A stretch of DNA of 64,000 nucleotides, taken from positions 79,849 to 143,848 of the forward strand of contig NZ_KV917380.1 of NCBI RefSeq assembly GCF_002019765.1, in the 5' to 3' direction. This DNA comes from Shouchella oshimensis. GTDB lineage: Bacteria > Bacillota > Bacilli > Bacillales > Bacillaceae_D. The notes beneath the pieces were generated by a model that was not told the DNA's origin, did no database searches, and worked only from the letters and a program-made list of their open reading frames with translations. This document shows, in pieces, positions 12,173-23,421 of the stretch. The position numbers were made by a program, and so were the translations under genes. Every line of letters starts with the position of its first letter. The first letter of the stretch is position 1.

Positions 12173-12895
12173 CTATAGCACTTTACTCAAAAAGGTCTTT
12201 GTCCGTTCGTGCTGTGTTTCATCAAATAGTTGTTGGGGCGTGCCTTCTTCTACAATCTTCCCGTCATCCATAAAGAATACTCGATCTCCTACTTCTCGTG
12301 CAAAACCCATCTCATGCGTCACAACGACCATGGTCATTCCTTCTAAAGCGAGCTCCTTCATGACACCGAGAACATCGCCAACAAGCTCTGGATCAAGTGC
12401 TGATGTGGGCTCATCAAATAACATCACTTTTGGATTCATGGAGAGCGCACGTGCAATCGCTACTCGTTGCTTTTGACCGCCAGACAGGCTTGCAGGATAA
12501 TCATCGGCTTTGTCACTTAAACCCACTTTTTCAAGCAATGCCAATGCCACATCAATCGCTTCTTCCTTTTTTGCCTTTTTCACTTTGAGTGGAGCAAGTG
12601 TAATATTTTCTAAAACGGTCTTATGAGGGAATAAGTTGAAATGCTGGAAGACCATCCCTACTTCTTGACGAATTCGATTTAAATCTGTACGTGGATCAGC
12701 GATGTTCTCCTGTTCGATATACACTTCCCCAGAGGTGATTTCTTCAAGCCGGTTTAAACAGCGCAAAAAAGTACTCTTTCCTGATCCCGATGGGCCAATC
12801 ACACACACAACTTCCTTTTCGTGAATGGTTGTTGAAATCCCTTTTAACACTTCATTTTTTCCGAAGCTTTTATGTAAATTTTTTACAGTAATCAT
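12173..12895 (-). CDS. Polar amino-acid ABC transporter ATPase (GlnQ type)
   Basis: ATP-binding subunit of an amino-acid importer (240 residues, standard for GlnQ/HisP). It has Walker [10 protein letters not shown] (about 35-43), Q-loop [16 protein letters not shown], signature [15 protein letters not shown] (about 134), Walker [14 protein letters not shown] and the H-loop [11 protein letters not shown] that marks the polar amino-acid subfamily. Its ATG overlaps the stop codon of the permease gene, so translation is coupled. It is the last gene of the SBP-permease-ATPase unit. The gene order and sequence type suggest glutamine or a related amino acid or derivative. Confidence 0.93.
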
Positions 12896-13536
12896 TAGTG
12901 GTCAAGTCTCCGTTCTATATAACGTAATAAAATAGAAGCTGGTATCGTTATAGCTAAGTAAAATAAACAAACGAGTAAGTATGTATCAAAATAAGATGCG
13001 GAAATTCCGGTATAGGTTCTACTTTGATACATCAGATCTGCAACAGCAATCGTTGATAAGAGCGATGTATCTTTTAAACTAATGACAAATTGATTCCCAA
13101 AAGGAGGAATCATTACTTTTACTGCCTGTGGCCATACAATATGCCGCATCGTCTGTGTTCCTGTTAAGCCTAAAGAACGCCCTGCTTCCATTTGTCCCTT
13201 ATCAATTGATTGTATCGCCCCACGGACAATTTCGGCAATATATGCGCCTGAATTAATCGCAATAACAAAAATTCCTGTATATAGTGGATCGAACCGGACA
13301 CCAAAAATACCAGGAATCCCAAAGTGAATAAAGAAGATTTGTGCTAATAGCGGGGTACCTCGAATAATTTCTACAAAAACTACTGCAACAGCTTTTATCA
13401 GCTTGAAGCGAGAAAGTTTCATAAGACCTACTAAGGAACCAATGATGCTTCCAAAAAACACACCAACTAGCGTAATAATAATTGTTAACTTTAACCCTTC
13501 TACTAAAAATGGAAAGGCACCAAAATCAAAATCCAT
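12895..13536 (-). CDS. Amino-acid ABC transporter permease (HisM/GlnP type)
   Basis: Inner-membrane permease (213 residues) with about five membrane helices. The EAA loop is in the form [22 protein letters not shown] (about residues 130-150) and the N-terminal [16 protein letters not shown] is typical of the His/Glu/Gln/Arg family. The start is ATG at 13536 with GGAAGAGG upstream; a TTG at 13554 precedes the ribosome binding site and is rejected. Only one permease gene is present, so the pore is probably a homodimer, as in GlnP systems. Confidence 0.92.
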
Positions 13537-13561
13537 TCTACCTCTTCCTTTCAATTAAGAA

Positions 13562-13589
13562 AGTTGCTCACCTTGTTGTATGAGCAACT
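13562..13589 (-). promoter_or_regulatory. Intercistronic hairpin between binding-protein and permease genes
   Basis: AGTTGCTCA (13562-13570) and TGAGCAACT (13581-13589) form a perfect 9-bp stem without a proper T run. Such hairpins after binding-protein genes protect the upstream mRNA or attenuate transcription, so more binding protein than permease is made. Confidence 0.6.
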
Positions 13590-13598
13590 CGATTTCAA

Positions 13599-14405
13599 TT
13601 ACATTCCTTCAGGTCTTTCTCCAAAATAGGTTTCGTAAATATCTCCGTATGTGCCATTTTCCATCAACGTCGCTAATGCTTCATTGACATCGTCAACCAA
13701 ATCAGACCCTTTTGGAAAAGCAATACCGTAATCTTCACCTGTTAACAAATCACCTACAATCTTCATTGAGCCTTCTCCTTGCTGCTGAATGAAATATTGT
13801 ACATTCGGCATATCATAAAGTGCCGCATCGACGTGACCAGCAATTAATGCTTGATAGGCCTCTGTAATTTCCGGATACGCATCAACCTCTGCATCTGTCT
13901 GTTCGTCAAGATACGTTTGACTTGTGGAAGATAGTCTAGTAGAAACTTTATGATCACTAGTGAGATCATCAATGGACTGAATTGTATCATCGTCCTGTGC
14001 AACGGCTAACACTAGACCTGACTCGTAATATGGATCAGAAAAATCAATATTCTGCTTGCGTTCTTCTGTGATGCTCATGCCGTTTATGGCTGCATCATAG
14101 GATCCTTGTTCAATTCCTGACAGAGCGCCACTAAAATCCATTTGATGAAAATTCACTTCGAATCCCGATTCCTCTGCAATCGCTTCCATCAATTCAATGT
14201 CAAAACCGGTTAACTCGTTTGTTTCTAAATCAATAAATTCAAATGGAACAAAATTGTTATCTGTCGCAATATCGTATGTAACGATTTCCGTATTTCCATC
14301 ATTCGTTGTTGAATTTGTTTCTCCGCCTGATGTTTCATCATTTCCACAGGCTGCTAATACAAGTACTGCTCCTGCAACCGTTATCGTTCCGACTAATTTC
14401 TTCAT
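13599..14405 (-). CDS. Amino-acid ABC transporter substrate-binding lipoprotein (GlnH-like, SBP family 3)
   Basis: Extracellular receptor (268 residues). It has a lipoprotein signal with lipobox LAAC (Cys at about 20), an acidic Thr/Asn/Ser linker, then SBP family 3 features: NNFVPFEF, TGFDIELMEAIAEE, AINGMSITEERKQNIDFSDPYYESG and EDYGIAFPKGS. These are closest to glutamine-binding proteins. The start is ATG at 14405 with AAAGGAG upstream. It has its own promoter and lies downstream of a terminator that closes the catabolic operon, so it may be separately regulated even if it serves the same pathway. Ectoine uptake is possible from context but it does not look like EhuB. Confidence 0.88.
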   Translation of the reverse strand: MKKLVGTITVAGAVLVLAACGNDETSGGETNSTTNDGNTEIVTYDIATDNNFVPFEFIDLETNELTGFDIELMEAIAEESGFEVNFHQMDFSGALSGIEQGSYDAAINGMSITEERKQNIDFSDPYYESGLVLAVAQDDDTIQSIDDLTSDHKVSTRLSSTSQTYLDEQTDAEVDAYPEITEAYQALIAGHVDAALYDMPNVQYFIQQQGEGSMKIVGDLLTGEDYGIAFPKGSDLVDDVNEALATLMENGTYGDIYETYFGERPEGM

Positions 14406-14445
14406 AGATGTTCTCCTTTTTTGATCTTTTCTGTTAATTCTCATT

Positions 14446-14575: not shown

Positions 14576-14613
14576 AAAAAAGGATTGAAGGCTATTCCCT
14601 TCAATCCTTTTAC
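14576..14613 (-). terminator. Terminator of the ectoine-type catabolic operon
   Basis: On the minus strand AAAGGATTGAAGG pairs with CCTTCAATCCTTT across a 6-base loop and continues into a T run, just after the aldehyde dehydrogenase stop codon. Confidence 0.85.
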
Positions 14614-14619
14614 TGTCTT

Positions 14620-16056
14620 CTAAGCAAGCTTAAAGCAAATCACTTTCTCTTCAGTCATTTCGTGTATAGAAAATTTCACACCTTCCCGCCCCACACCTGA
14701 TTGTTTTGTACCGCCAAATGGCATCCCATCAATGCGAAAGTCTGTACTATCGTTAATCATCACACCACCAACGTGAAGTTGCTTAATAAGGGTAAAAGCG
14801 CGATGTAAATCTTTCGTAAAAAGACCAGCTTGTAAACCGTAGTCTGTTTGATTCGCTTTTTCTATGGCCTCTGTAAGGGTTTGGAAAGAATAGAGCAAAA
14901 CAACAGGGCCAAATACTTCTTCTCTTCCTAAATGACAATCTTCTGGAACATTTTCAAGCACAGTAGGTTCATAAAAAGCCCCATCTCGTTTGCCACCTGT
15001 AAGAATGGTTGCACCTGTCCGCTCTGCATCTTCCACCATAAAGGCCACACGCTTTGCTTCTTTTTCATGAATCAACGGTCCCATACTCGTTGATTCATCA
15101 AGCTTTGGACCAAGACGATACTGCTTTGTCTCTTTCACAAATTGATCTTTAAACTCTTTATAAATGGATTGATCAATATAAATCCGCTGCACACCGATGC
15201 AGTTCTGCCCTGCAGCCCAAAAAGCACCACTTACACATGAAGGTATAGCTTCTTCGAGTGAAGCATCTTCAAGTACGATAACAGGAGAATTTGAACCAAG
15301 TTCCATGCTTTTCTTTTTTAATCCTGCTTGATTGGCAATCTTTAATCCAGCTTCCATCCCACCTGTAAATGAAATCATCCGTACATCTGGATGAGTCATT
15401 AATACTTGACCAACCTCAGATCCTATACCAGTAATAACAGAGAGAATCCCTTTTGGTAGCTCTGCATAATCAAATGCTTCTGCTAGAAAGAGAGCACTAA
15501 GAGGCGTTGCTGTTGCTGGTTTTACAACAATCGCATTTCCAGAAGCAATTGCTGGACCAATCTTATGAGCAACTAAGTTTAACGGATCGTTGAATGGTGT
15601 AATGGCACCGATAATGCCTAACGGGACTCGTTCATAATACCCGAATCGTCCAACTCCCCCCTCAGATTGGTCAAACGGTATGGTTTCACCTGTTACTCTT
15701 CGCGCTTCCTCTGCTGACAACCGCAACGTCTCCACACATCGGCCAGCTTCTTTTCTTGCTTCTGTAATCGTCTTACTGCCCTCTAGAGCGATTGTTTTAG
15801 CATACGTTTCTTTGTGTGTCTCTACATAATCAGCTGCTTTGTTTAAAATATTCATTCGCTTATATACAGGTAAATGTGCAGATACTTGAGCACCTTTCTT
15901 TGCTAACTCTACTGCTTCTTCCATATCTTTTCGGGAGGCACGCGGAACAACTGCAATTAAATCATCATCTTCTGGGTTGCGTACTTCCAGTACACGTTCC
16001 CGTTCAACCCAGTCACCTGCTACAAACATTTTCTGACGCTTCAAATCTACCTTCAT
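14620..16056 (-). CDS. Aldehyde dehydrogenase, possibly aspartate-semialdehyde to aspartate (DoeC role)
   Basis: NAD(P)-dependent aldehyde dehydrogenase of 478 residues. Catalytic and structural motifs are intact: TPFNDP (Asn about 155), VKPATATPLSAL, FTGG (231-233), general base Glu in MELGSNSP (about 252) and nucleophile Cys in GQNCIG (about 286). The sequence alone fits a broad semialdehyde dehydrogenase group. As last gene of the operon with a EutD-like hydrolase and a homoserine-dehydrogenase-like enzyme, oxidation of aspartate-beta-semialdehyde to aspartate, the DoeC step of ectoine breakdown, is a reasonable inference. ATG at 16056 with AGGAGG 8 bases upstream. Confidence 0.8.
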   Translation of the reverse strand: MKVDLKRQKMFVAGDWVERERVLEVRNPEDDDLIAVVPRASRKDMEEAVELAKKGAQVSAHLPVYKRMNILNKAADYVETHKETYAKTIALEGSKTITEARKEAGRCVETLRLSAEEARRVTGETIPFDQSEGGVGRFGYYERVPLGIIGAITPFNDPLNLVAHKIGPAIASGNAIVVKPATATPLSALFLAEAFDYAELPKGILSVITGIGSEVGQVLMTHPDVRMISFTGGMEAGLKIANQAGLKKKSMELGSNSPVIVLEDASLEEAIPSCVSGAFWAAGQNCIGVQRIYIDQSIYKEFKDQFVKETKQYRLGPKLDESTSMGPLIHEKEAKRVAFMVEDAERTGATILTGGKRDGAFYEPTVLENVPEDCHLGREEVFGPVVLLYSFQTLTEAIEKANQTDYGLQAGLFTKDLHRAFTLIKQLHVGGVMINDSTDFRIDGMPFGGTKQSGVGREGVKFSIHEMTEEKVICFKLA

Positions 16057-16068
16057 AGGAATAACCTC

Positions 16069-17139
16069 CTAATTTATCATCGTCGTATTTGATTGACTTT
16101 GCACGTGCAGATGACAGTAAATTAAGTCAATAAAAAGAGCATACCCGGTTTCTCTTTTCCCTGCCCCAGCTCCTGTTAACGTAATATCACCAGACATATT
16201 GCATGAATACGTAATGGCATTTGTTGCACCGCCAATGCTTGCTAAAGGATGAGTAAGAGGAATTTCAACGGGCTTCACAGATGCGTGTACAACACCGTTT
16301 TCTCGTTCTTCCACCGTACCGAGCATCTTCCAACATGATTGCTTTTCCTTTGACGCTAAGATAGCCTCTCGAGTTAAAGTATTTAACCCTTCTCGCTCCA
16401 CTTGTTCTACAGTAATATCCTTACCCATGACAGCATTTGCTAGGATAACGACTTTGTACATGGCATCGTAACCTTCTACATCACTCGTTGGATCTGCCTC
16501 TGCATATCCTTTTTCTTGTGCTTCCTTTAAGGCACTTTCATACGAAAAGCCTTTTTCCATTTGTGTAATCATATAATTGGTTGTGCCGTTTAAAATTCCA
16601 CTAATCTTCGTAATTTTATTTCCAATTAATGTTGTCTTTGGAAGTCGTAATGACGGCGTTCCGCTCATAACAGTCCCCTCATAGCCAAGAAACACGTTGT
16701 TTTCTTTTGCTAGACTCTCAAGCTCTTTTAATGCAAGAGCGATAGGGCCTTTATTCGTCATCACAACGCTCTTTTTATGTTGAAATGCAGTCTTACAATG
16801 AGTGATAGCTGGCTCTCCTGTTTTTACATTTGTATAAGTAGCTTCAACAACGACATCTGCGTTGCTTTCAATAATGGTTGCAATGGCATCAAGATCACGA
16901 ATTAAACCTTTTGACTGAGGATAATCTTCAAGGGAACCTGTGGTTTCTAATGTATGAAGTAGTAGCTCTAAATCAAGACCCTCCGGATCATAGAGAGATC
17001 CCTTCTTAAAATCAGAGATGGCAACAACCACTGGATGAAAACCAACCTCTTCTTTCGCCTTCTCACCATGTTGAATTAGGTGCTCCACGAGGCCTTGCCC
17101 GACCACTCCAAACCCGAGTAATGCTAATTTAAGCTTCAT
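16069..17139 (-). CDS. Homoserine dehydrogenase-like oxidoreductase without ACT domain
   Basis: A 356-residue protein with an N-terminal Rossmann motif GFGVVGQG (residues 9-16) and the homoserine dehydrogenase signature AEADPTSDVEGYDAMYK (about 213-229), including the catalytic Lys. The substrate-binding NGTTNYM is also present. It lacks the C-terminal ACT domain used for threonine feedback in biosynthetic Hom proteins of bacilli, which fits a catabolic role freed from that control. The start is ATG at 17139 (AGGAGG 8 bases upstream), overlapping the M20 gene by 11 bases. The enzyme would interconvert aspartate-semialdehyde and homoserine. Which direction it runs in this operon is unknown. 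Confidence 0.82.
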   Translation of the reverse strand: MKLKLALLGFGVVGQGLVEHLIQHGEKAKEEVGFHPVVVAISDFKKGSLYDPEGLDLELLLHTLETTGSLEDYPQSKGLIRDLDAIATIIESNADVVVEATYTNVKTGEPAITHCKTAFQHKKSVVMTNKGPIALALKELESLAKENNVFLGYEGTVMSGTPSLRLPKTTLIGNKITKISGILNGTTNYMITQMEKGFSYESALKEAQEKGYAEADPTSDVEGYDAMYKVVILANAVMGKDITVEQVEREGLNTLTREAILASKEKQSCWKMLGTVEERENGVVHASVKPVEIPLTHPLASIGGATNAITYSCNMSGDITLTGAGAGKRETGYALFIDLIYCHLHVQSQSNTTMIN

Positions 17140-18328
17140 TGTCAATTCCTCCTTGTAATGCAGCCAACGCTGTTGAAGCTAGCAATGTCGCCCCTTTCTT
17201 CAGACAAGCTTCATCAATTTGAAAAAGCGGCGTGTGTAAATCATATTGACCATGTTCTGGTTTACATCCTAAAAAGAACATAGCTGCTCGCGCCTTTTCT
17301 GCTGTATAGGCAAAATCCTCACTCCCCAAACCATAGGGAGCATCCACGATACGATCATTTGGGTAAAGCGTTTTAGCAGTGTCGACAATGACATCAATAG
17401 CCTCACCGTTATTTACAAGAGCAGGCTCACCAGACTCTATTAGGCAAGTTCCTTCTCCCCCAAATACATTAGCTAGTGTAAACGCTTTTCTAATTTCATT
17501 TATTAAGTAGGTTCGTGTAGCTGCCGAGTAACAACGGATGGTTCCTTCCACGTATACCTCTGACGGAATCACATTGTTAGCCCTTCCACCTTGAACAATG
17601 CCTATACTTAATATAGCCGCTTCTAACGGCGAAACGAGTCTATTTTGTAAACTATATAATGCAGGCAAAACTTGAGATAGAAGCCAGACTGGATCTGTTC
17701 CTAAGTGAGGATATGCGCCATGTCCACCAGTCCCTTTTATCGTTCCTTTAAACACATCGAAGCTGCCCATCGCTGGTCCTTTGTAGACTTGAATGGCATC
17801 GGGTGTGAGCCACGGGCACATGTGGAGAGCGAATGCCATATCAACATCGTCGTACACACCTTCTTTTACTAAATACAATCCACCTGATGTATTCGTTTCG
17901 TCCGTCGATTCTTCTGCTGGCTGGAACACAAATTTGATTGTACCTGTTACTGATGTATGATTGATTTGTTCTGCAAGCAACGTTGCAGCACCTAGTAAAA
18001 TAGCCGTGTGAGCATCATGACCACACGCATGCATTATCCCTGGATGTTCACTAGAAAAGGAGACATCTGCCTCCTCATGAATGGGTAATGCGTCCATATC
18101 TGCACGTAAAGCAATGGTTGGTCCAACCCCATTCGATAGTGTCCCTACTACCCCATAGCCAACGTTTGACTGAAAAACGGTCATTCCCGGTATGTTTTCT
18201 AGCTGCTTTTTGACGAAAGCAGAGGTTTCTTTTTCTTGAAAACTACATTCGGGGTATCGATGCAAATGACGTCGCCACTCAATAAGCTTTTCTTCCATTT
18301 TTAGGGCATATGCTTTTAACACTTCCAC
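17129..18328 (-). CDS. M20D family amidohydrolase; candidate N-acetyl-diaminobutyrate deacetylase
   Basis: Metal-dependent amidohydrolase (399 residues from GTG 18328). Motifs of the M20D (hippurate / N-acyl-amino-acid) group are visible: ALRADMDALP (Asp about 77-79), HACGHDAHT with His, Cys and His ligands (about 100-107), and FQPAEE with catalytic Glu pair (about 141). Members remove acyl groups from amino acids. In this operon it is the natural candidate to deacetylate the N-acetyl-2,4-diaminobutyrate made by the EutD-like enzyme, a step done elsewhere by AstE-type DoeB/EutE. The start is uncertain: GTG at 18328 or 18322, or ATG at 18298. It follows the PLP gene with 1 base between. Confidence 0.8.
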   Translation of the reverse strand: MEVLKAYALKMEEKLIEWRRHLHRYPECSFQEKETSAFVKKQLENIPGMTVFQSNVGYGVVGTLSNGVGPTIALRADMDALPIHEEADVSFSSEHPGIMHACGHDAHTAILLGAATLLAEQINHTSVTGTIKFVFQPAEESTDETNTSGGLYLVKEGVYDDVDMAFALHMCPWLTPDAIQVYKGPAMGSFDVFKGTIKGTGGHGAYPHLGTDPVWLLSQVLPALYSLQNRLVSPLEAAILSIGIVQGGRANNVIPSEVYVEGTIRCYSAATRTYLINEIRKAFTLANVFGGEGTCLIESGEPALVNNGEAIDVIVDTAKTLYPNDRIVDAPYGLGSEDFAYTAEKARAAMFFLGCKPEHGQYDLHTPLFQIDEACLKKGATLLASTALAALQGGIDNEA

Positions 18329-18329
18329 C

Positions 18330-19538
18330 TTAAACGCCTACTTCCACTGCCTTAAATGCTTGTTTAAAATCTTGAATAATATCATCTGCATCTTCAATCC
18401 CACATGATACACGTATGAGCCCTTCTGGTATGCCCATGGCTGCACGCTCTTCTGGTGTACATTCCACGTGACTTGTTGTTCTTGCAGGACCTACTGTCGT
18501 CTCTACAGCACCTAAATTAGCCGCTCGGTTAGCATACTGTAATTTCGGCAATAAATGACGAACTGTATCCACTCCTCCAGTAACAGCAAAACTCAACATA
18601 CCACCAAAGCCTGACATTTGTTCTTTTGCAATTGCATGATTTGGATGGTCTTCAAGACCTGGATAAAAGACTTGTTCTACCCCTTCAACTGTCTTTAAAT
18701 ACGTTGCGAGCTTCATTGCTGTTTCTGCCTGTCTCTTTACTCGCAGATCTAACGTTTTCATACCACGCAATAGAAGGTAAGCGGCCCATGGATCCATCGT
18801 TGCACCGTTAATTTCACGGTAATGATAGATGGCTTCGATCAGGGCATGATCATAGCCTACGACGACACCGCCTAATGCGTCTGCATGACCACCTAAAAAT
18901 TTCGTAGCGCTATGCAGAACAAGATCGGCTCCAAGTTGCAACGGATTTTGATTAATTGGGGTAGCGAATGTATTATCGACAACCACTAATGCTCCTGCTT
19001 GATGGCCTGCTTGGGCACATTTCTTTATATCCGTAATTTTCACAGTTGGATTTGTCGGTGTTTCTAAATATAAAATTTTACACCCTTTTGCGGTTTCTTC
19101 TATTAGTTGTTCATGATTGCCAGTTTCACAAAACTGCACATCCACACCTATGTTTGGCAAAAATTCTGTAAAAATTTTATTCGTTCCCCCATACGTATCT
19201 TTAATTGTCACAACACGATCACCAGGGCGAAGAAAGGTATATAACGTGTTAGAAATGGCGGCCATTCCCGTAGAAAAACTCGTCGCCGCGTTAGCACCTT
19301 CTAATACTTTAACTTTATCTTCAAATGCTTGCACAGTTGGATTTGTATTTCGTCCATATATATGACCTTTTTTGCGTCCAATTGCAACTTCATACCACTC
19401 ATCCATATCGTCATAACCAAATGCAACGCTAGGTATAACAGGCACTTGAGTTGCTCCATGTACAAGATACTCTTTTTCTCCTGCCCAAACGGCTTGGGTT
19501 GCTAATGATGGTTTGTGTTGTTCTGTCAAATCTCTCAT
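18330..19538 (-). CDS. Cys/Met-metabolism PLP-dependent enzyme (cystathionine gamma-synthase/lyase family)
   Basis: Fold-type I PLP enzyme (402 residues). It shows the YGRNTNPT motif with the Tyr/Arg phosphate-binding pair (61-63), FSTGMAAI, VVDNTFATP and the Schiff-base Lys in HSATKFLGGH (about 213). The C-terminal RVSCGIEDADDII is also typical. Relatives catalyse gamma-elimination or gamma-replacement on homoserine esters, cystathionine or methionine. In this operon the substrate may be diaminobutyrate or homoserine; neither is proven. ATG at 19538 abuts an AAGGGG site, so TTG at 19529 (9 bases away) may be the real start. It lies between the EutD-like and M20 genes. Confidence 0.85.
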   Translation of the reverse strand: MRDLTEQHKPSLATQAVWAGEKEYLVHGATQVPVIPSVAFGYDDMDEWYEVAIGRKKGHIYGRNTNPTVQAFEDKVKVLEGANAATSFSTGMAAISNTLYTFLRPGDRVVTIKDTYGGTNKIFTEFLPNIGVDVQFCETGNHEQLIEETAKGCKILYLETPTNPTVKITDIKKCAQAGHQAGALVVVDNTFATPINQNPLQLGADLVLHSATKFLGGHADALGGVVVGYDHALIEAIYHYREINGATMDPWAAYLLLRGMKTLDLRVKRQAETAMKLATYLKTVEGVEQVFYPGLEDHPNHAIAKEQMSGFGGMLSFAVTGGVDTVRHLLPKLQYANRAANLGAVETTVGPARTTSHVECTPEERAAMGIPEGLIRVSCGIEDADDIIQDFKQAFKAVEVGV

Positions 19539-19552
19539 CCCCTTATTTTTGA

Positions 19553-20743
19553 TTACGATGCAGAGTCAATCGACGTATTCGATAATAACTGTCTAGGAAA
19601 ATCTGCAAGAAGCTCACAACTATCCTTTGTGATCCGAATCGATTCACTAATCTCGACGCCAAAATCTTCGTACCACATACCAGGAATCACATGAAACGCC
19701 ATATTCTCTTTTAACTCTGTCTGATCCCCTTTTCGTAAGCTTGCAGTATGCTCACCCCAATCCGGTGGATAATTCAAACCTGTTGAATATCCTAAGCGAG
19801 ACTCCTTCTTTAGTCCATATCGATTAATAGTTTTTTGCCAGACTGCTTCTACTTGTTCACACGTTACGCCAGGTTTAATAAATGCCATCACTTCGTTCAA
19901 CCCTTCTACAACAATGTCTGCTACATCTGAAACACGCTGCTGTGGTTTTCCAATTGTAATCGTTCGGGCTAAAGGAGCATGGTAGCGCTGATGACAACCT
20001 GCTAGTTCAATGATAACCGTTTCTTCACTAGGATAACGTTGATCCGTCCATGTAATATGTGGAGCACCTGTTTTTATTCCAGCAGGTAACAACGGAACAA
20101 TAGCTGGGTAATCCCCACCACCTTCATCCGTTCCTGAGAGTTGTGCATGGTAAATATCAGCAACAACATCACATTCTCTTGCACCGGCTTGAATGGCATT
20201 CATACCTGCATACATAGCTTTAGCAGCAATCTTTCCCGCTTGCTTCATATAATGGATCTCTTGCTCTGATTTTATGATTCTGACCCAGTTTACGAGGTTG
20301 GTAGCATCGACAAAAGTTGCATTTGGTAAAGCTTCTTTTAAGCGATGATGAGCTTGAGCAGTATAGTAATACGTATCCATCTCAACACCAATGGATCGAT
20401 TCGATTGACCAATATCGGAAAGAACCTTGCCGATAAAATCCATTGGGTGCTCTTCTCGAGACTGGACAAAATAGTCGGGATAAGAGATGATCCGTTCATG
20501 CATAAGCCATGTTGTCTGCTTCGCAACATTTGCATCCATTCCTCTACCAAGCCATATGGGCTGTTCTTCATCAATGAGTAGGACTAACATTTGATGAACA
20601 TAAAAGGACCAGCCGTTAAAACCAGAGAGGTAATTCATATTAGCTGGATCCGTTATAAGTAAGACATCAATACCCCTTTTTTCCATCTTCTTTTTTGTAT
20701 TCGCAATTCGTGCTTGAAACTCCTCTAACGTGAACGGGAACAT
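19553..20743 (-). CDS. Ectoine hydrolase-like protein (EutD/DoeA, M24 'pita-bread' fold)
   Basis: A 396-residue protein with the creatinase-type N-domain and M24 C-domain. Many stretches match my memory of EutD/DoeA, which open the ectoine ring to N-acetyl-2,4-diaminobutyrate: GFNGWSFYVHQ (41-51), GRGMDANVAK (67-75), EEHPMDF (98-103), GVEMDTYYY (119-127), VDATNLVNW (145-153), GGDYPAIVPLLP (209-220) and YPPDWGEHT (about 328). The usual M24 metal ligands are missing: the first Asp position reads IIELAG (244-249) and the second HAPLART (255-261). That is expected for a non-peptidase member. ATG with AGGAGG 7 bases upstream. First gene of the operon, directly after a PucR-type regulator gene. Confidence 0.78.
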   Translation of the reverse strand: MFPFTLEEFQARIANTKKKMEKRGIDVLLITDPANMNYLSGFNGWSFYVHQMLVLLIDEEQPIWLGRGMDANVAKQTTWLMHERIISYPDYFVQSREEHPMDFIGKVLSDIGQSNRSIGVEMDTYYYTAQAHHRLKEALPNATFVDATNLVNWVRIIKSEQEIHYMKQAGKIAAKAMYAGMNAIQAGARECDVVADIYHAQLSGTDEGGGDYPAIVPLLPAGIKTGAPHITWTDQRYPSEETVIIELAGCHQRYHAPLARTITIGKPQQRVSDVADIVVEGLNEVMAFIKPGVTCEQVEAVWQKTINRYGLKKESRLGYSTGLNYPPDWGEHTASLRKGDQTELKENMAFHVIPGMWYEDFGVEISESIRITKDSCELLADFPRQLLSNTSIDSAS

Positions 20744-20917: not shown

Positions 20918-20942
20918 AAAAACACCTACATCTGAGGTGTCT
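20918..20942 (-). terminator. Terminator embedded in the end of the PucR gene
   Basis: On the minus strand ACACCT and AGGTGT form a stem followed by seven Ts. The stem includes the last codons and the stop codon (20926) of the regulator gene, so its transcript ends immediately after translation and does not run into the ectoine-type operon. Confidence 0.75.
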
Positions 20943-22608
20943 CCATATTCTTCTTTATTTGATACGTACGGATACATAAATCCAACAAAAAAAGGTTATC
21001 AGGATTTGCAAGAGATAAACCTGTAATGGTTTCAATTTTTCTAAGTCGATATAATAAAGATTGACGGTGAAGGTGTAAAACACGGGCTGTTTGTGACACT
21101 TTATTTTGATTTCGCTGGTATACTATAAAGGTTTCAAGTAGATCAATTTCTCTCATTATCGAATAATCAATAAGCGGTTGAACGTATCCTTTGATTAATT
21201 CTTGAATTTCATCAACTGTTCCAATTTTATGCATGACTCGATCAATTTTCGTATCGCTGAAATAAATTCGACTTCCTTTACCAAGTCGACCCAAACCTAA
21301 TTGCAGGGCTTGCTTGGCTTCTGCAAAACGAGCTGCAAATCTATTGGGCTCAATGGCTGCATCTCCTATTGCCCAAGTAAGTTCAACATCAGGTAATAAA
21401 TGATCCAATCTTCGGTATAATAAGTCCAAAAAACTATTGACCGTTGCTTTATAATCTTCAGCAGAAACTTCTAGGAAGATGATTAATTGACTATCTAAAA
21501 AAGTTGACATACACCCTCGTTCAATCGTTGAACCTGCAAAATAAATTTCTTCCTCAATGTAATGAATCATACTCGATAACCATTCTTCATAAGTAGCCGT
21601 TTGACCAATTTTCGAAAATAACGTCTCGAAATTATGGGGAAAGCCAACGATTGCAAGATAAGATAAATGCAAATTGTAGCCAAATGCACGTGCTTTTGCA
21701 TATAAAGGTTTTGAGTGAATGCCATTAGCTAAATCGGCAACAAAATTGTCTCGAATTCGTGCCTCCGCCTCTTGAACAGCGTTTTCCTGTAAGAACCAGA
21801 AAGCCGCGGCCGTTACTGTATGCTCTAAAATGATGAAAAAGCTTTGTTCATCCACCTTGTCTGATTCACTTAATGGCGTTGTGAACATATAGCCTTGAAT
21901 ATCATGATTTGTTTGGATAATTGGTAATACGTATAACGTATCCTTTTCCACAACAATTTCTTGAATTTTGCTTTCAAGAGGATGGTGTTCGCTTGAAAAA
22001 TCAAATGCTCTCACATCGTTTACTGCATGTCGTACTTTCTTTTCAAATGAATGGGAAACGAGATGACTTTTTCCCTTCAATGTACCGGCATGATCTGTTA
22101 TCACAATGGGTACTGCCATACAGTTTGAAACATGGTCAGCAATAGTTGACAAACGATTGCCTGCAAGAGTAAGGGAGAGTAATTCTTGTTGAATATGTTG
22201 CGTAAATTGAAGGTGCTCTTGCTTCTGATCTAACAAGCGAGCAGTAACCGCTTGTGTTAGGTCAGCAAATCGTATTTCCCATGGCAAAAATAGAATGGGT
22301 AATTCATGTTCTTCTGCTAATGCTTTCGCATCTTCATATAATTCAAATATATAACGACCTGTTGCTACCGCTAACGCAGCAGCTTCAGATTTAATCACAT
22401 CAGATACAAACTCATAAAATTGTTTTGGATCATGACCGTAACCAATACCTGTTGTTAGAACAAGTTCGTGTTTACGTATAAAGTTCTCTACTGGTGCCTC
22501 GGTTATAGAGACCCACTCCACTTGTTTATTGCCTACATGATTAACAGCTGTTTTAATGGTAGCAGGCTTCATGATATCTAATTTCATGATTTCATTTAAC
22601 GTTAACAC
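20926..22608 (-). CDS. PucR family transcriptional regulator
   Basis: A 560-residue regulator with an N-terminal PucR sensory domain (about 1-120; LTTGIGYGHDP is typical), a central GGDEF-like/CdaR-type region (about 300-440) and a C-terminal helix-turn-helix of the PucR type (about 490-545, with NKVSQTARVLHLHRQSLLYRLRKIE). PucR/CdaR proteins activate catabolic operons in response to the substrate or a pathway product. GTG start at 22608 with GGGAGGG 7 bases upstream. It is transcribed in the same direction as the adjacent five-gene operon but closed off by its own terminator, and it probably forms a unit with the upstream nitrilase-family gene (33 bases between). Confidence 0.88.
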   Translation of the reverse strand: MLTLNEIMKLDIMKPATIKTAVNHVGNKQVEWVSITEAPVENFIRKHELVLTTGIGYGHDPKQFYEFVSDVIKSEAAALAVATGRYIFELYEDAKALAEEHELPILFLPWEIRFADLTQAVTARLLDQKQEHLQFTQHIQQELLSLTLAGNRLSTIADHVSNCMAVPIVITDHAGTLKGKSHLVSHSFEKKVRHAVNDVRAFDFSSEHHPLESKIQEIVVEKDTLYVLPIIQTNHDIQGYMFTTPLSESDKVDEQSFFIILEHTVTAAAFWFLQENAVQEAEARIRDNFVADLANGIHSKPLYAKARAFGYNLHLSYLAIVGFPHNFETLFSKIGQTATYEEWLSSMIHYIEEEIYFAGSTIERGCMSTFLDSQLIIFLEVSAEDYKATVNSFLDLLYRRLDHLLPDVELTWAIGDAAIEPNRFAARFAEAKQALQLGLGRLGKGSRIYFSDTKIDRVMHKIGTVDEIQELIKGYVQPLIDYSIMREIDLLETFIVYQRNQNKVSQTARVLHLHRQSLLYRLRKIETITGLSLANPDNLFLLDLCIRTYQIKKNMETPQM

Positions 22609-22641: not shown

Positions 22642-23421
22642 TCAATAAAGAGAAGGTTTGCGATCTTTTAATAATGGAATATCTTCTCTAATCTGTTCAA
22701 CTTCCTTTTTCTTTAACGTTGCAAGAATTGTTCCTTCATCTTCAGTTGCTTCTTCTATTACATCACCACTTGGACGAATGACCACTGAATGACCACCATA
22801 GGCAGTTTGGGTATCAGAACCTATTCGGTTAACGCCAATAACGTATACTTGGTTCTCAATCGCTCGTGCTTGAAGCAACGTACGCCATACAGCGGTTCTT
22901 GCTCTTGGCCACTCAGCTGGAATGACTAACACATCTGCACCTGCTAACGTTAGTTTTCTTGCTAATTCAGGAAAACGTAGGTCATAGCAAATCATTGTGC
23001 CTATCGTTAACCCATCTAAAGTAAACAAATGAGGCGGTTCTTGGCCAGCTGCAAAAAAGTCGGGTTCGTTTAGCATTGGCACTAAATGCACTTTATCATA
23101 TTGATTAATCAATGCCCCTTCTTTGTTATAAACAAGAGCTGTATTGTAAAACTTATTTTCTCTTTTTGTAACGATTGATCCTCCAATTATATGCACCTTA
23201 TGCGTGTTAGCAAGTTCAACCATAAAGGCTTTTGTTTCTTCTTCTTGAGACGCTATCTGCTCTAATTGATCATACGCATAACCTGAAGACCATAATTCAG
23301 GTAAAATAACACAATTCACACTTTTCTCTTTACAAAGCTGTTTCATCCACGCTGCAACACGCTCACTATTTTTCTTCACATCACCAAGTTCGATGTCCCC
23401 TTGATACAGTGCCACTTTCAT
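22642..23421 (-). CDS. Carbon-nitrogen hydrolase (nitrilase superfamily, omega-amidase/MtnU-like)
   Basis: A 259-residue amidase with the nitrilase-superfamily triad visible: Glu in LPELWSSGY (about 42), Lys in YDKVHL (about 109) and Cys in MICYDLRFPE (about 144). Length and motifs resemble B. subtilis MtnU and omega-amidases, which hydrolyse alpha-keto-acid amides. Placed directly upstream of the PucR gene with a short gap, it may take part in the same pathway, for example handling an amide intermediate, or it may be an independent housekeeping amidase. ATG start; the ribosome binding site upstream is AGGGAG-like. Confidence 0.85.
   Translation of the reverse strand: MKVALYQGDIELGDVKKNSERVAAWMKQLCKEKSVNCVILPELWSSGYAYDQLEQIASQEEETKAFMVELANTHKVHIIGGSIVTKRENKFYNTALVYNKEGALINQYDKVHLVPMLNEPDFFAAGQEPPHLFTLDGLTIGTMICYDLRFPELARKLTLAGADVLVIPAEWPRARTAVWRTLLQARAIENQVYVIGVNRIGSDTQTAYGGHSVVIRPSGDVIEEATEDEGTILATLKKKEVEQIREDIPLLKDRKPSLY

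Follow-up and report, generated by a model that had tools for sequence, protein, structure and literature searches.

How could a bacterium turn ectoine into aspartate from a locus that encodes no class III aminotransferase? This question is raised by a minus-strand operon of Shouchella oshimensis, which lies in a stretch of 64,000 nucleotides (hereafter the window; RefSeq assembly GCF_002019765.1, contig NZ_KV917380.1, positions 79,849 to 143,848). The operon encodes a PucR-family regulator, a DoeA-like (EutD-like) M24 hydrolase, a pyridoxal phosphate (PLP) enzyme of the cystathionine gamma-synthase (CGS) type, an M20D amidohydrolase, a homoserine dehydrogenase (HSDH) and an aldehyde dehydrogenase (ALDH); as an earlier note on this DNA had stated, it holds no class III aminotransferase. 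We propose, with moderate confidence, that it degrades ectoine to aspartate via homoserine and without a dedicated transaminase, drawing on gene content, a gene swap seen twice, the setting of one plasmid and a single precedent from biochemistry.

In the proposed route, the DoeA-like enzyme would open the ectoine ring to give N-acetyl-2,4-diaminobutyrate, from which the M20D enzyme would remove the acetyl group to release diaminobutyrate (DABA). The CGS-type enzyme would eliminate the gamma-amino group of DABA and add water, yielding homoserine and ammonia; HSDH would oxidise homoserine to aspartate semialdehyde, which ALDH would oxidise to aspartate. Gene set, families, co-occurrence and swap are read from the genomes, and every reaction, above all that from DABA to homoserine, is a prediction.

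HSDH occurs almost exclusively with CGS and ALDH

The DoeA-like gene is found in 39 of the family's 41 genomes and in 119 of 397 genomes sampled from the order, with one sub-cut-off match, in Haloferax volcanii, among 14 well-known control genomes; given this distribution and its recurring neighbours, the gene set does not arise by chance. The CGS family is present in 119/397 order genomes, all above cut-off, and in 0/14 controls, and the HSDH family in 94/397, with matches in 3/14 controls, all archaea. DoeA and CGS share a genome in 113/397 cases (lists compared by eye). Six genomes have DoeA without CGS (G280, G321, G349, G369, G380 and G399; here G and L numbers denote genomes and loci) and six have CGS without DoeA (G219, G226, G273, G308, G373 and G387), and all HSDH genomes except G369 (93/94) also have CGS. 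Of 299 genomes sampled from the phylum, two have the CGS family, the window's own and G578; in the latter, a DoeA-like gene is also present on a different contig. In G219, G308 and G387, which belong to one family and have genomes of 5.5-5.8 Mb, the CGS and HSDH genes are adjacent; no close DoeA-like gene is found in these three, the best match (75.6 bits) lying elsewhere in G219.

We compared 142 DoeA loci, made up of 140 fetched loci, a Priestia plasmid and the window, with S. medicae and Phyllobacterium excluded; some genomes contribute two loci, and about 21 DoeA places of the order sample are not included. The DoeA-like gene has CGS close by in 127 of these loci and HSDH in 102. All three of CGS, HSDH and ALDH are present in 101 loci, CGS alone in 26, ALDH alone in 7 and none in 7; HSDH and ALDH occur without CGS once, and CGS is never found with ALDH but without HSDH, nor with HSDH but without ALDH, against expectations under independence of 27.5 and 21.2, respectively, which ignore ancestry and carry no significance test. 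An HSDH that appears nearly only alongside the enzymes that would supply its substrate and use its product fits the middle step of a chain. The full set spans 21 families and CGS alone 9. A second, named locus set, found with the CGS alignment and comprising the best 80 of 568 matches, has DoeA in 78/80 stretches and HSDH in 73/80. The earlier note had cast homoserine as an added branch; the table of combinations instead favours a necessary on-path intermediate, which we consider more likely than a side branch. In L104 (10786-11670), L109, L110, L208, L255 and L261, a PdxS-type PLP-synthesis gene lies in or beside the cluster, which would fit a heavy PLP demand.

Class III aminotransferases in place of CGS and HSDH

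In L108, L118 and L139, DoeA and M20D are kept, the ALDH is 62-64% identical to that of the window, and a class III aminotransferase directly follows it; neither CGS nor HSDH leaves a remnant that tblastn detects at E 1e-4. In L125 and L133, a gamma-aminobutyrate-transaminase-like class III enzyme precedes an ALDH that is 34-35% identical to the window's (resembling succinate semialdehyde dehydrogenase in L125), and CGS and HSDH are again absent by tblastn. The two groups separate in DoeA trees. One genome, G407, holds both types of locus (L113 and L118).

A Klebsiella plasmid cluster with DoeB and CGS

L207, on Klebsiella pneumoniae plasmid NZ_CP013713.1 from activated sludge, carries EutC- and EutB-like genes, EhuABCD, an EnuR-like gene, DoeA, DoeB and then CGS. 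Its DoeA scores 758 bits over a cut-off of 613, its DoeB 540 over 403 and its CGS, 58% identical to the window's, 651 over 600; as predicted from these genes, it is a canonical-type ectoine/hydroxyectoine uptake and degradation cluster on a plasmid. No class III aminotransferase was found in the cluster. DABA would be the substrate at hand after DoeB, so that CGS is the sole enzyme listed for L207 that could take it. L207 resembles the window in a DoeA-type gene, followed here by DoeB, and in a CGS that belongs to one and the same NCBIfam family; unlike the window, it has a canonical-kind DoeB, EhuABCD and an EnuR-like regulator, and lacks HSDH and ALDH. Plasmid records with such a CGS at E 1e-100 comprise 27 from Klebsiella, 5 from Priestia and 1 from Pluralibacter, with gene context inspected in one Klebsiella and two Priestia records. 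We found no on-topic publication on a Klebsiella plasmid ectoine cluster in the open-access literature searched.

Canavanine utilisation as a precedent

Canavanine-gamma-lyase converts canavanine to homoserine and hydroxyguanidine, as described in the accessible text of two papers (PMC10018355, PMC12508155). The rhizobial plasmid loci L289-L291 hold a B3/4 gene, an ABC transporter, a CGS-family PLP gene, HSDH, ALDH and aspartate ammonia-lyase, with a transposase gene between HSDH and ALDH in L290; L292 holds HSDH, ALDH, a CGS-family gene and aspartate ammonia-lyase, with no B3/4 gene in view. The B3/4 gene is of the kind whose product edits canavanyl-tRNA, and we infer that L289-L291 are canavanine operons whose PLP gene encodes canavanine-gamma-lyase. 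The abstract of the original paper on that enzyme reportedly listed an induced homoserine dehydrogenase, aspartate semialdehyde dehydrogenase and aspartate ammonia-lyase.

Relative to the window, HSDH of L289-L291 is 43-45% identical, ALDH 50-51% and the lyase 34-36%, so that the downstream HSDH-ALDH pair is related and the lyases differ; HSDH of L289 belongs to the same NCBIfam family as the window's, and its lyase falls under the NF006097 cut-off. Across four rhizobial plasmid loci, the ALDH encoded close to HSDH shares 49-51% identity with that of the window. Canavanine utilisation thus resembles the window in a CGS-family PLP enzyme and a related HSDH and ALDH, and differs in its substrate, canavanine rather than DABA, and in the added aspartate ammonia-lyase and B3/4 gene. 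We see equal grounds for accepting and for doubting a broader proposal, in which NF006097 would be a DABA gamma-lyase that hydrates to homoserine and, with HSDH and ALDH, would form an exchangeable amino-acid-to-aspartate cassette for different front ends, namely ectoine in the Bacillales (the lyase alone on Klebsiella plasmids) and canavanine in rhizobia (with a distant sister lyase). In Brevibacillus fluminis (L274, 6894-14500), PucR on the other strand, CGS, HSDH, ALDH and an amino acid permease occur with no DoeA or M20D in the stretch; this is perhaps the cassette alone, with DABA, canavanine or another free amino acid as its substrate.

Enzyme families and ectoine as a plausible substrate

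The earlier note had placed the M24 protein with EutD/DoeA. TIGR02993 (DoeA) is indeed its best model; the score of 498.6 bits misses the cut-off of 613, and we therefore name the protein DoeA-like rather than DoeA. Its closest solved relatives are DoeA structures (6twk, 6yo9 and 6twj, E ~1e-114), with the next protein at ~1e-30. It is 50% identical to the annotated S. medicae DoeA, and GWSFYVHQ, GGDYPAIVPLLP and YPPDWGE are common to both and to the Klebsiella DoeA. In a rooted tree of 38 leaves, these three proteins, the Klebsiella DoeA being above cut-off, fall in one clade (ultrafast bootstrap, UFBoot, 94) that takes in every Bacillales copy in the tree except a paralogue in L117; outside it lie that paralogue, three Phyllobacterium M24 proteins and two host M24 paralogues, so that the DoeA-like protein stands apart from other M24 proteins, as the earlier note expected. 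A change in the M24 metal ligands was considered as a DoeA mark and rejected because the Phyllobacterium proteins have it too. In Phyllobacterium, M24 relatives that are 46% identical lie near a polyamine-type transporter; the plasmid locus L106, where three M24 genes stand together with an M20 aminoacylase and ABC transporters, makes up a separate, though related, M24 pathway.

Plasmid pBMV_1 of Priestia megaterium ATCC 14581 carries the cluster. The Priestia version adds a EutB that scores 435 bits over the NF005680 cut-off of 413 but does not pass TIGR02991 (389 of 413), and a EutC-like protein that exceeds the NF006141 cyclodeaminase cut-off but does not pass TIGR02992 (426 of 472). In the window, neither eutB nor eutC lies close to the operon, and none of six matches in the host genome to TIGR02991, the EutB model for hydroxyectoine use, exceeds the cut-off (best 232.8 of 413 bits); this model gives sub-cut-off matches in all 14/14 control genomes. 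Outside the window, an ectoine synthase gene of the host adjoins one for a class III aminotransferase (G000:C1:3770431-3772042), and because of this pair the host, a predicted ectoine consumer, is probably a producer as well. Clade and Priestia EutB agree with the earlier note in making ectoine, as far as sequence goes, a plausible substrate of the operon, and PucR probably senses ectoine or a pathway intermediate.

For the M20D protein, TIGR01891 (344 bits over 153.75) is the sole listed model passed; the DoeB2 model NF038260 gives 212 bits and misses its cut-off of 550, and the best solved relative is YxeP (1ysj). No match to DoeB (TIGR02994) is found in the host genome at E 0.001, and the M20D enzyme is likely the operon's deacetylase, a replacement that the earlier note had proposed. 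HSDH, one of two PF00742 genes in the host genome, scores 435 bits over the NF004912 cut-off of 373 and shows no match to an ACT domain; its best solved relative is 3do5, and a Glu/Asp/Lys stretch that we take to be catalytic is conserved in alignments with 3do5 and 4ydr.

The CGS-type protein, named 'cystathionine gamma-synthase family protein' in RefSeq, scores 733 bits over the NF006097 (PRK08249) cut-off of 600. Methionine gamma-lyases are its closest solved relatives, yet it misses the methionine gamma-lyase cut-off of TIGR01328 (378 of 549.7 bits), and the position of the methionine-lyase cysteine, presumably an active-site residue of that enzyme, is a glycine (alignment with 1y4i) that is invariant in 20 aligned proteins. 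Also invariant in 20 aligned proteins are Y61, R63, Y116, D188 and R376, which we take to be superfamily positions, and K213, the PLP lysine. H239, R241, E242 and N244 form a pattern absent from the rhizobial lyases; the Klebsiella CGS has the first three in common, and threonine replaces N244. Nine class III aminotransferase (PF00202) genes lie elsewhere in the host genome, one beside the ectoine synthase gene.

Operon layout and flanking genes

Open frames and profile matches confirm the five minus-strand genes and the families that the earlier note had claimed (Table 1), and their tight spacing and overlaps are seen in gaps, from the DoeA-like gene to ALDH, of 14, 1, -17 and 12 bases, with the PucR gene 182 bases upstream. 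The extent given there, which ended at the M24 gene, was too short, since the PucR gene belongs with the operon, its cluster having members in 118 loci. Among the matches listed, Shouchella miscanthi AK13 is the best named locus, with a CGS that is 98% identical and an identical gene order; in L212-L214 (Shouchella rhizosphaerae, tritolerans and clausii), unlike the window, a class III aminotransferase and other genes lie between PucR and DoeA. The host genome is a single contig of 4,058,377 bases.

Table 1 Features of the operon and its flanks, in window positions
Feature	Position	Strand	Basis
PucR-family regulator, likely regulator of operon	20926..22608	-	PF07905 and PF13556 above cut-off; 182 bases upstream
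DoeA-like (EutD-like) M24 hydrolase, predicted ectoine ring opening	19553..20743	-	TIGR02993 best NCBIfam model
CGS-type PLP enzyme, a predicted DABA gamma-lyase that would release homoserine	18330..19538	-	NF006097
M20D amidohydrolase, predicted N-acetyl-diaminobutyrate deacetylase	17129..18328	-	TIGR01891
HSDH, predicted homoserine to aspartate semialdehyde	16069..17145	-	NF004912
ALDH, predicted aspartate semialdehyde to aspartate	14620..16056	-	PF00171, 525.7 bits
Terminator-like hairpin after operon, 14 pairs	14578..14611		consensus scan
GlnHPQ-type amino acid ABC transporter, possible uptake system	12173..14444	-	glutamine-type GlnH/GlnP/GlnQ models
GlnHPQ binding protein	13599-14444	-	
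GlnHPQ permease	12895-13554	-	
GlnHPQ ATPase	12173-12895	-	
Carbon-nitrogen hydrolase	22642..23421	-	PF00795, 172.8 bits

ALDH is separated from the GlnHPQ-type transporter by 175 bases with a terminator-like hairpin between, which is a weak call because the consensus scan finds 12 such sites in the region vs 8.2 in shuffles. The transporter proteins have GlnH, GlnP and GlnQ as their best models yet score below cut-off, and the trio follows ALDH in 10/12 same-genus loci and in 0 other loci compared; we treat it as a possible uptake system and not as an established Ehu-type ectoine transporter, since Ehu models score weaker than the glutamine ones, also below cut-off, and the trio is confined to the genus among the loci compared. 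The adjoining carbon-nitrogen hydrolase is kept in 9/12 same-genus loci.

Relation to published clusters

The earlier note took the locus for an independent and previously undescribed assembly of the pathway. We reject this reading in view of PMC13188858 (April 2026), in whose accessible text pucR-eutBCD-atf together with abgB-thrA-adh is presented as a putative ectoine cluster of the Bacillales. That text says which types of enzyme abgB, thrA and adh encode but assigns no pathway step to them; it treats Gram-positive ectoine clusters as provisional until tested and reports eutE absent from those genomes. That cluster, as described there, resembles the window in its codirectional pucR, eutD, PLP gene, abgB (M20 amidohydrolase), thrA (HSDH) and adh (ALDH) and in lacking eutE, and differs in the presence of eutB and eutC and in the term atf for the PLP gene. 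By position, 'atf' is apparently the CGS-type gene: where EutC directly follows DoeA (72 cases, from two locus sets that overlap in species), the next gene is CGS in 70 and M20D in 2. What is new here is the proposed reaction order with its homoserine intermediate; the gene cluster itself is already in print as putative. The open-access literature searched yielded no DABA-to-homoserine or CGS step in ectoine use.

The canonical Doe/Eut pathway (Halomonas, Ruegeria, Sinorhizobium) likewise has a DoeA-type hydrolase first, then deacetylation, and ALDH last with aspartate as end product; in the window, M20D stands for DoeB/EutE, CGS with HSDH for the class III transaminase DoeD, and PucR for EnuR. 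According to the accessible text of PMC10203224 (2023), every Aquibacillus and related Bacillaceae genome of that study has doeA, and two strains have doeB; its authors regard ectoine in these taxa as an osmolyte and not as a nutrient, and they refer to a Sinobaca strain that both makes and consumes ectoine.

Weighing the homoserine route and its alternatives

Several observations weigh against the homoserine route. Clear swap events number only two; L203 groups with L125 and L133 and holds none of the partner genes, a class III aminotransferase adjoins an intact set in L121 (its genome shared with L223) and lies near one in L070-L072, L077, L134 and L135, and L200 and L103 have no CGS, HSDH or aminotransferase in the locus. 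A 454-residue gene in L200, considered as an aminotransferase by its length, was rejected as a DctM-type transporter. CGS is without HSDH and ALDH in 26/142 loci, so that the trio is not obligatory, and no HSDH or ALDH was found in the L207 cluster of Klebsiella. HSDH occurs without CGS in L172. Within the named set, ALDH is missing from L276, where CGS and HSDH are present, and HSDH is missing from L257, where CGS is present and a weakly similar ALDH (297 bits) lies beyond PucR. M20D is missing from the stretch in 28/101 full-trio loci. The DoeA-like protein misses the TIGR02993 cut-off, and matches above it number 0/41 in the family genomes and 0/397 in the order genomes. On chemical grounds, ammonia should leave less readily than hydroxyguanidine.

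The CGS-type enzyme could be a diaminobutyrate aminotransferase, with HSDH merely diverting some aspartate semialdehyde to homoserine. ALDH would then make aspartate as in the known route, and the eutD-eutC-atf order in the accessible text of PMC13188858 places 'atf' at the CGS position. Against this, the combination of CGS and ALDH without HSDH has no example in the 142 loci and only L257, from the second set, as a doubtful one, and HSDH is lost too where a class III aminotransferase takes over. To our knowledge the CGS family includes no gamma-transaminase, and we judge this reading unlikely. Similarly improbable is a plain gamma-lyase that would convert DABA to 2-oxobutyrate and ammonia, with HSDH and ALDH serving otherwise: this would suit the CGS-only loci, the Klebsiella cluster and the methionine gamma-lyases as closest solved relatives, but it leaves unexplained an HSDH so closely tied to CGS and ALDH, and the CGS-type enzyme carries an invariant glycine where methionine lyases have their cysteine.

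The substrates might also differ from those proposed. That the CGS-type enzyme acts on N-gamma-acetyl-DABA and releases acetamide, with M20D accessory, seems highly unlikely to us: M20D is retained in 6/7 loci with ALDH but neither CGS nor HSDH, and the above-cut-off Klebsiella DoeB should give free DABA, even though H. elongata DoeA yields alpha- and gamma-isomers 2:1 (accessible text of PMC5924519), M20D is not nearby in more than a quarter of full-trio loci and a carbon-nitrogen hydrolase adjoins the window operon. We also find it quite unlikely that another cyclic amidine or N-acyl diamino acid, rather than ectoine, is degraded. The sub-cut-off score of the DoeA-like protein, the Phyllobacterium relatives near a polyamine-type transporter, the Brevibacillus set without DoeA in its stretch and the Priestia EutB and EutC that fail TIGR02991 and TIGR02992 would all fit such a substrate; set against them are the clade with DoeA at support 94, from which the Phyllobacterium proteins are excluded, the motifs common with DoeA, the Priestia EutB above the NF005680 cut-off and the host's ectoine synthase gene with its adjoining class III aminotransferase gene.

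Implications

If true, the homoserine route would give roles to CGS, HSDH and ALDH, fill the missing transaminase step and supply a reaction for a PLP family with a wide distribution in the Bacillales. That reaction, in which ammonia leaves the gamma carbon and water enters, would be an addition to an enzyme superfamily that has been much studied. The route would also bear on how taxa with doeA alone are seen, which PMC10203224, in its accessible text, takes to use ectoine as an osmolyte and not as food.

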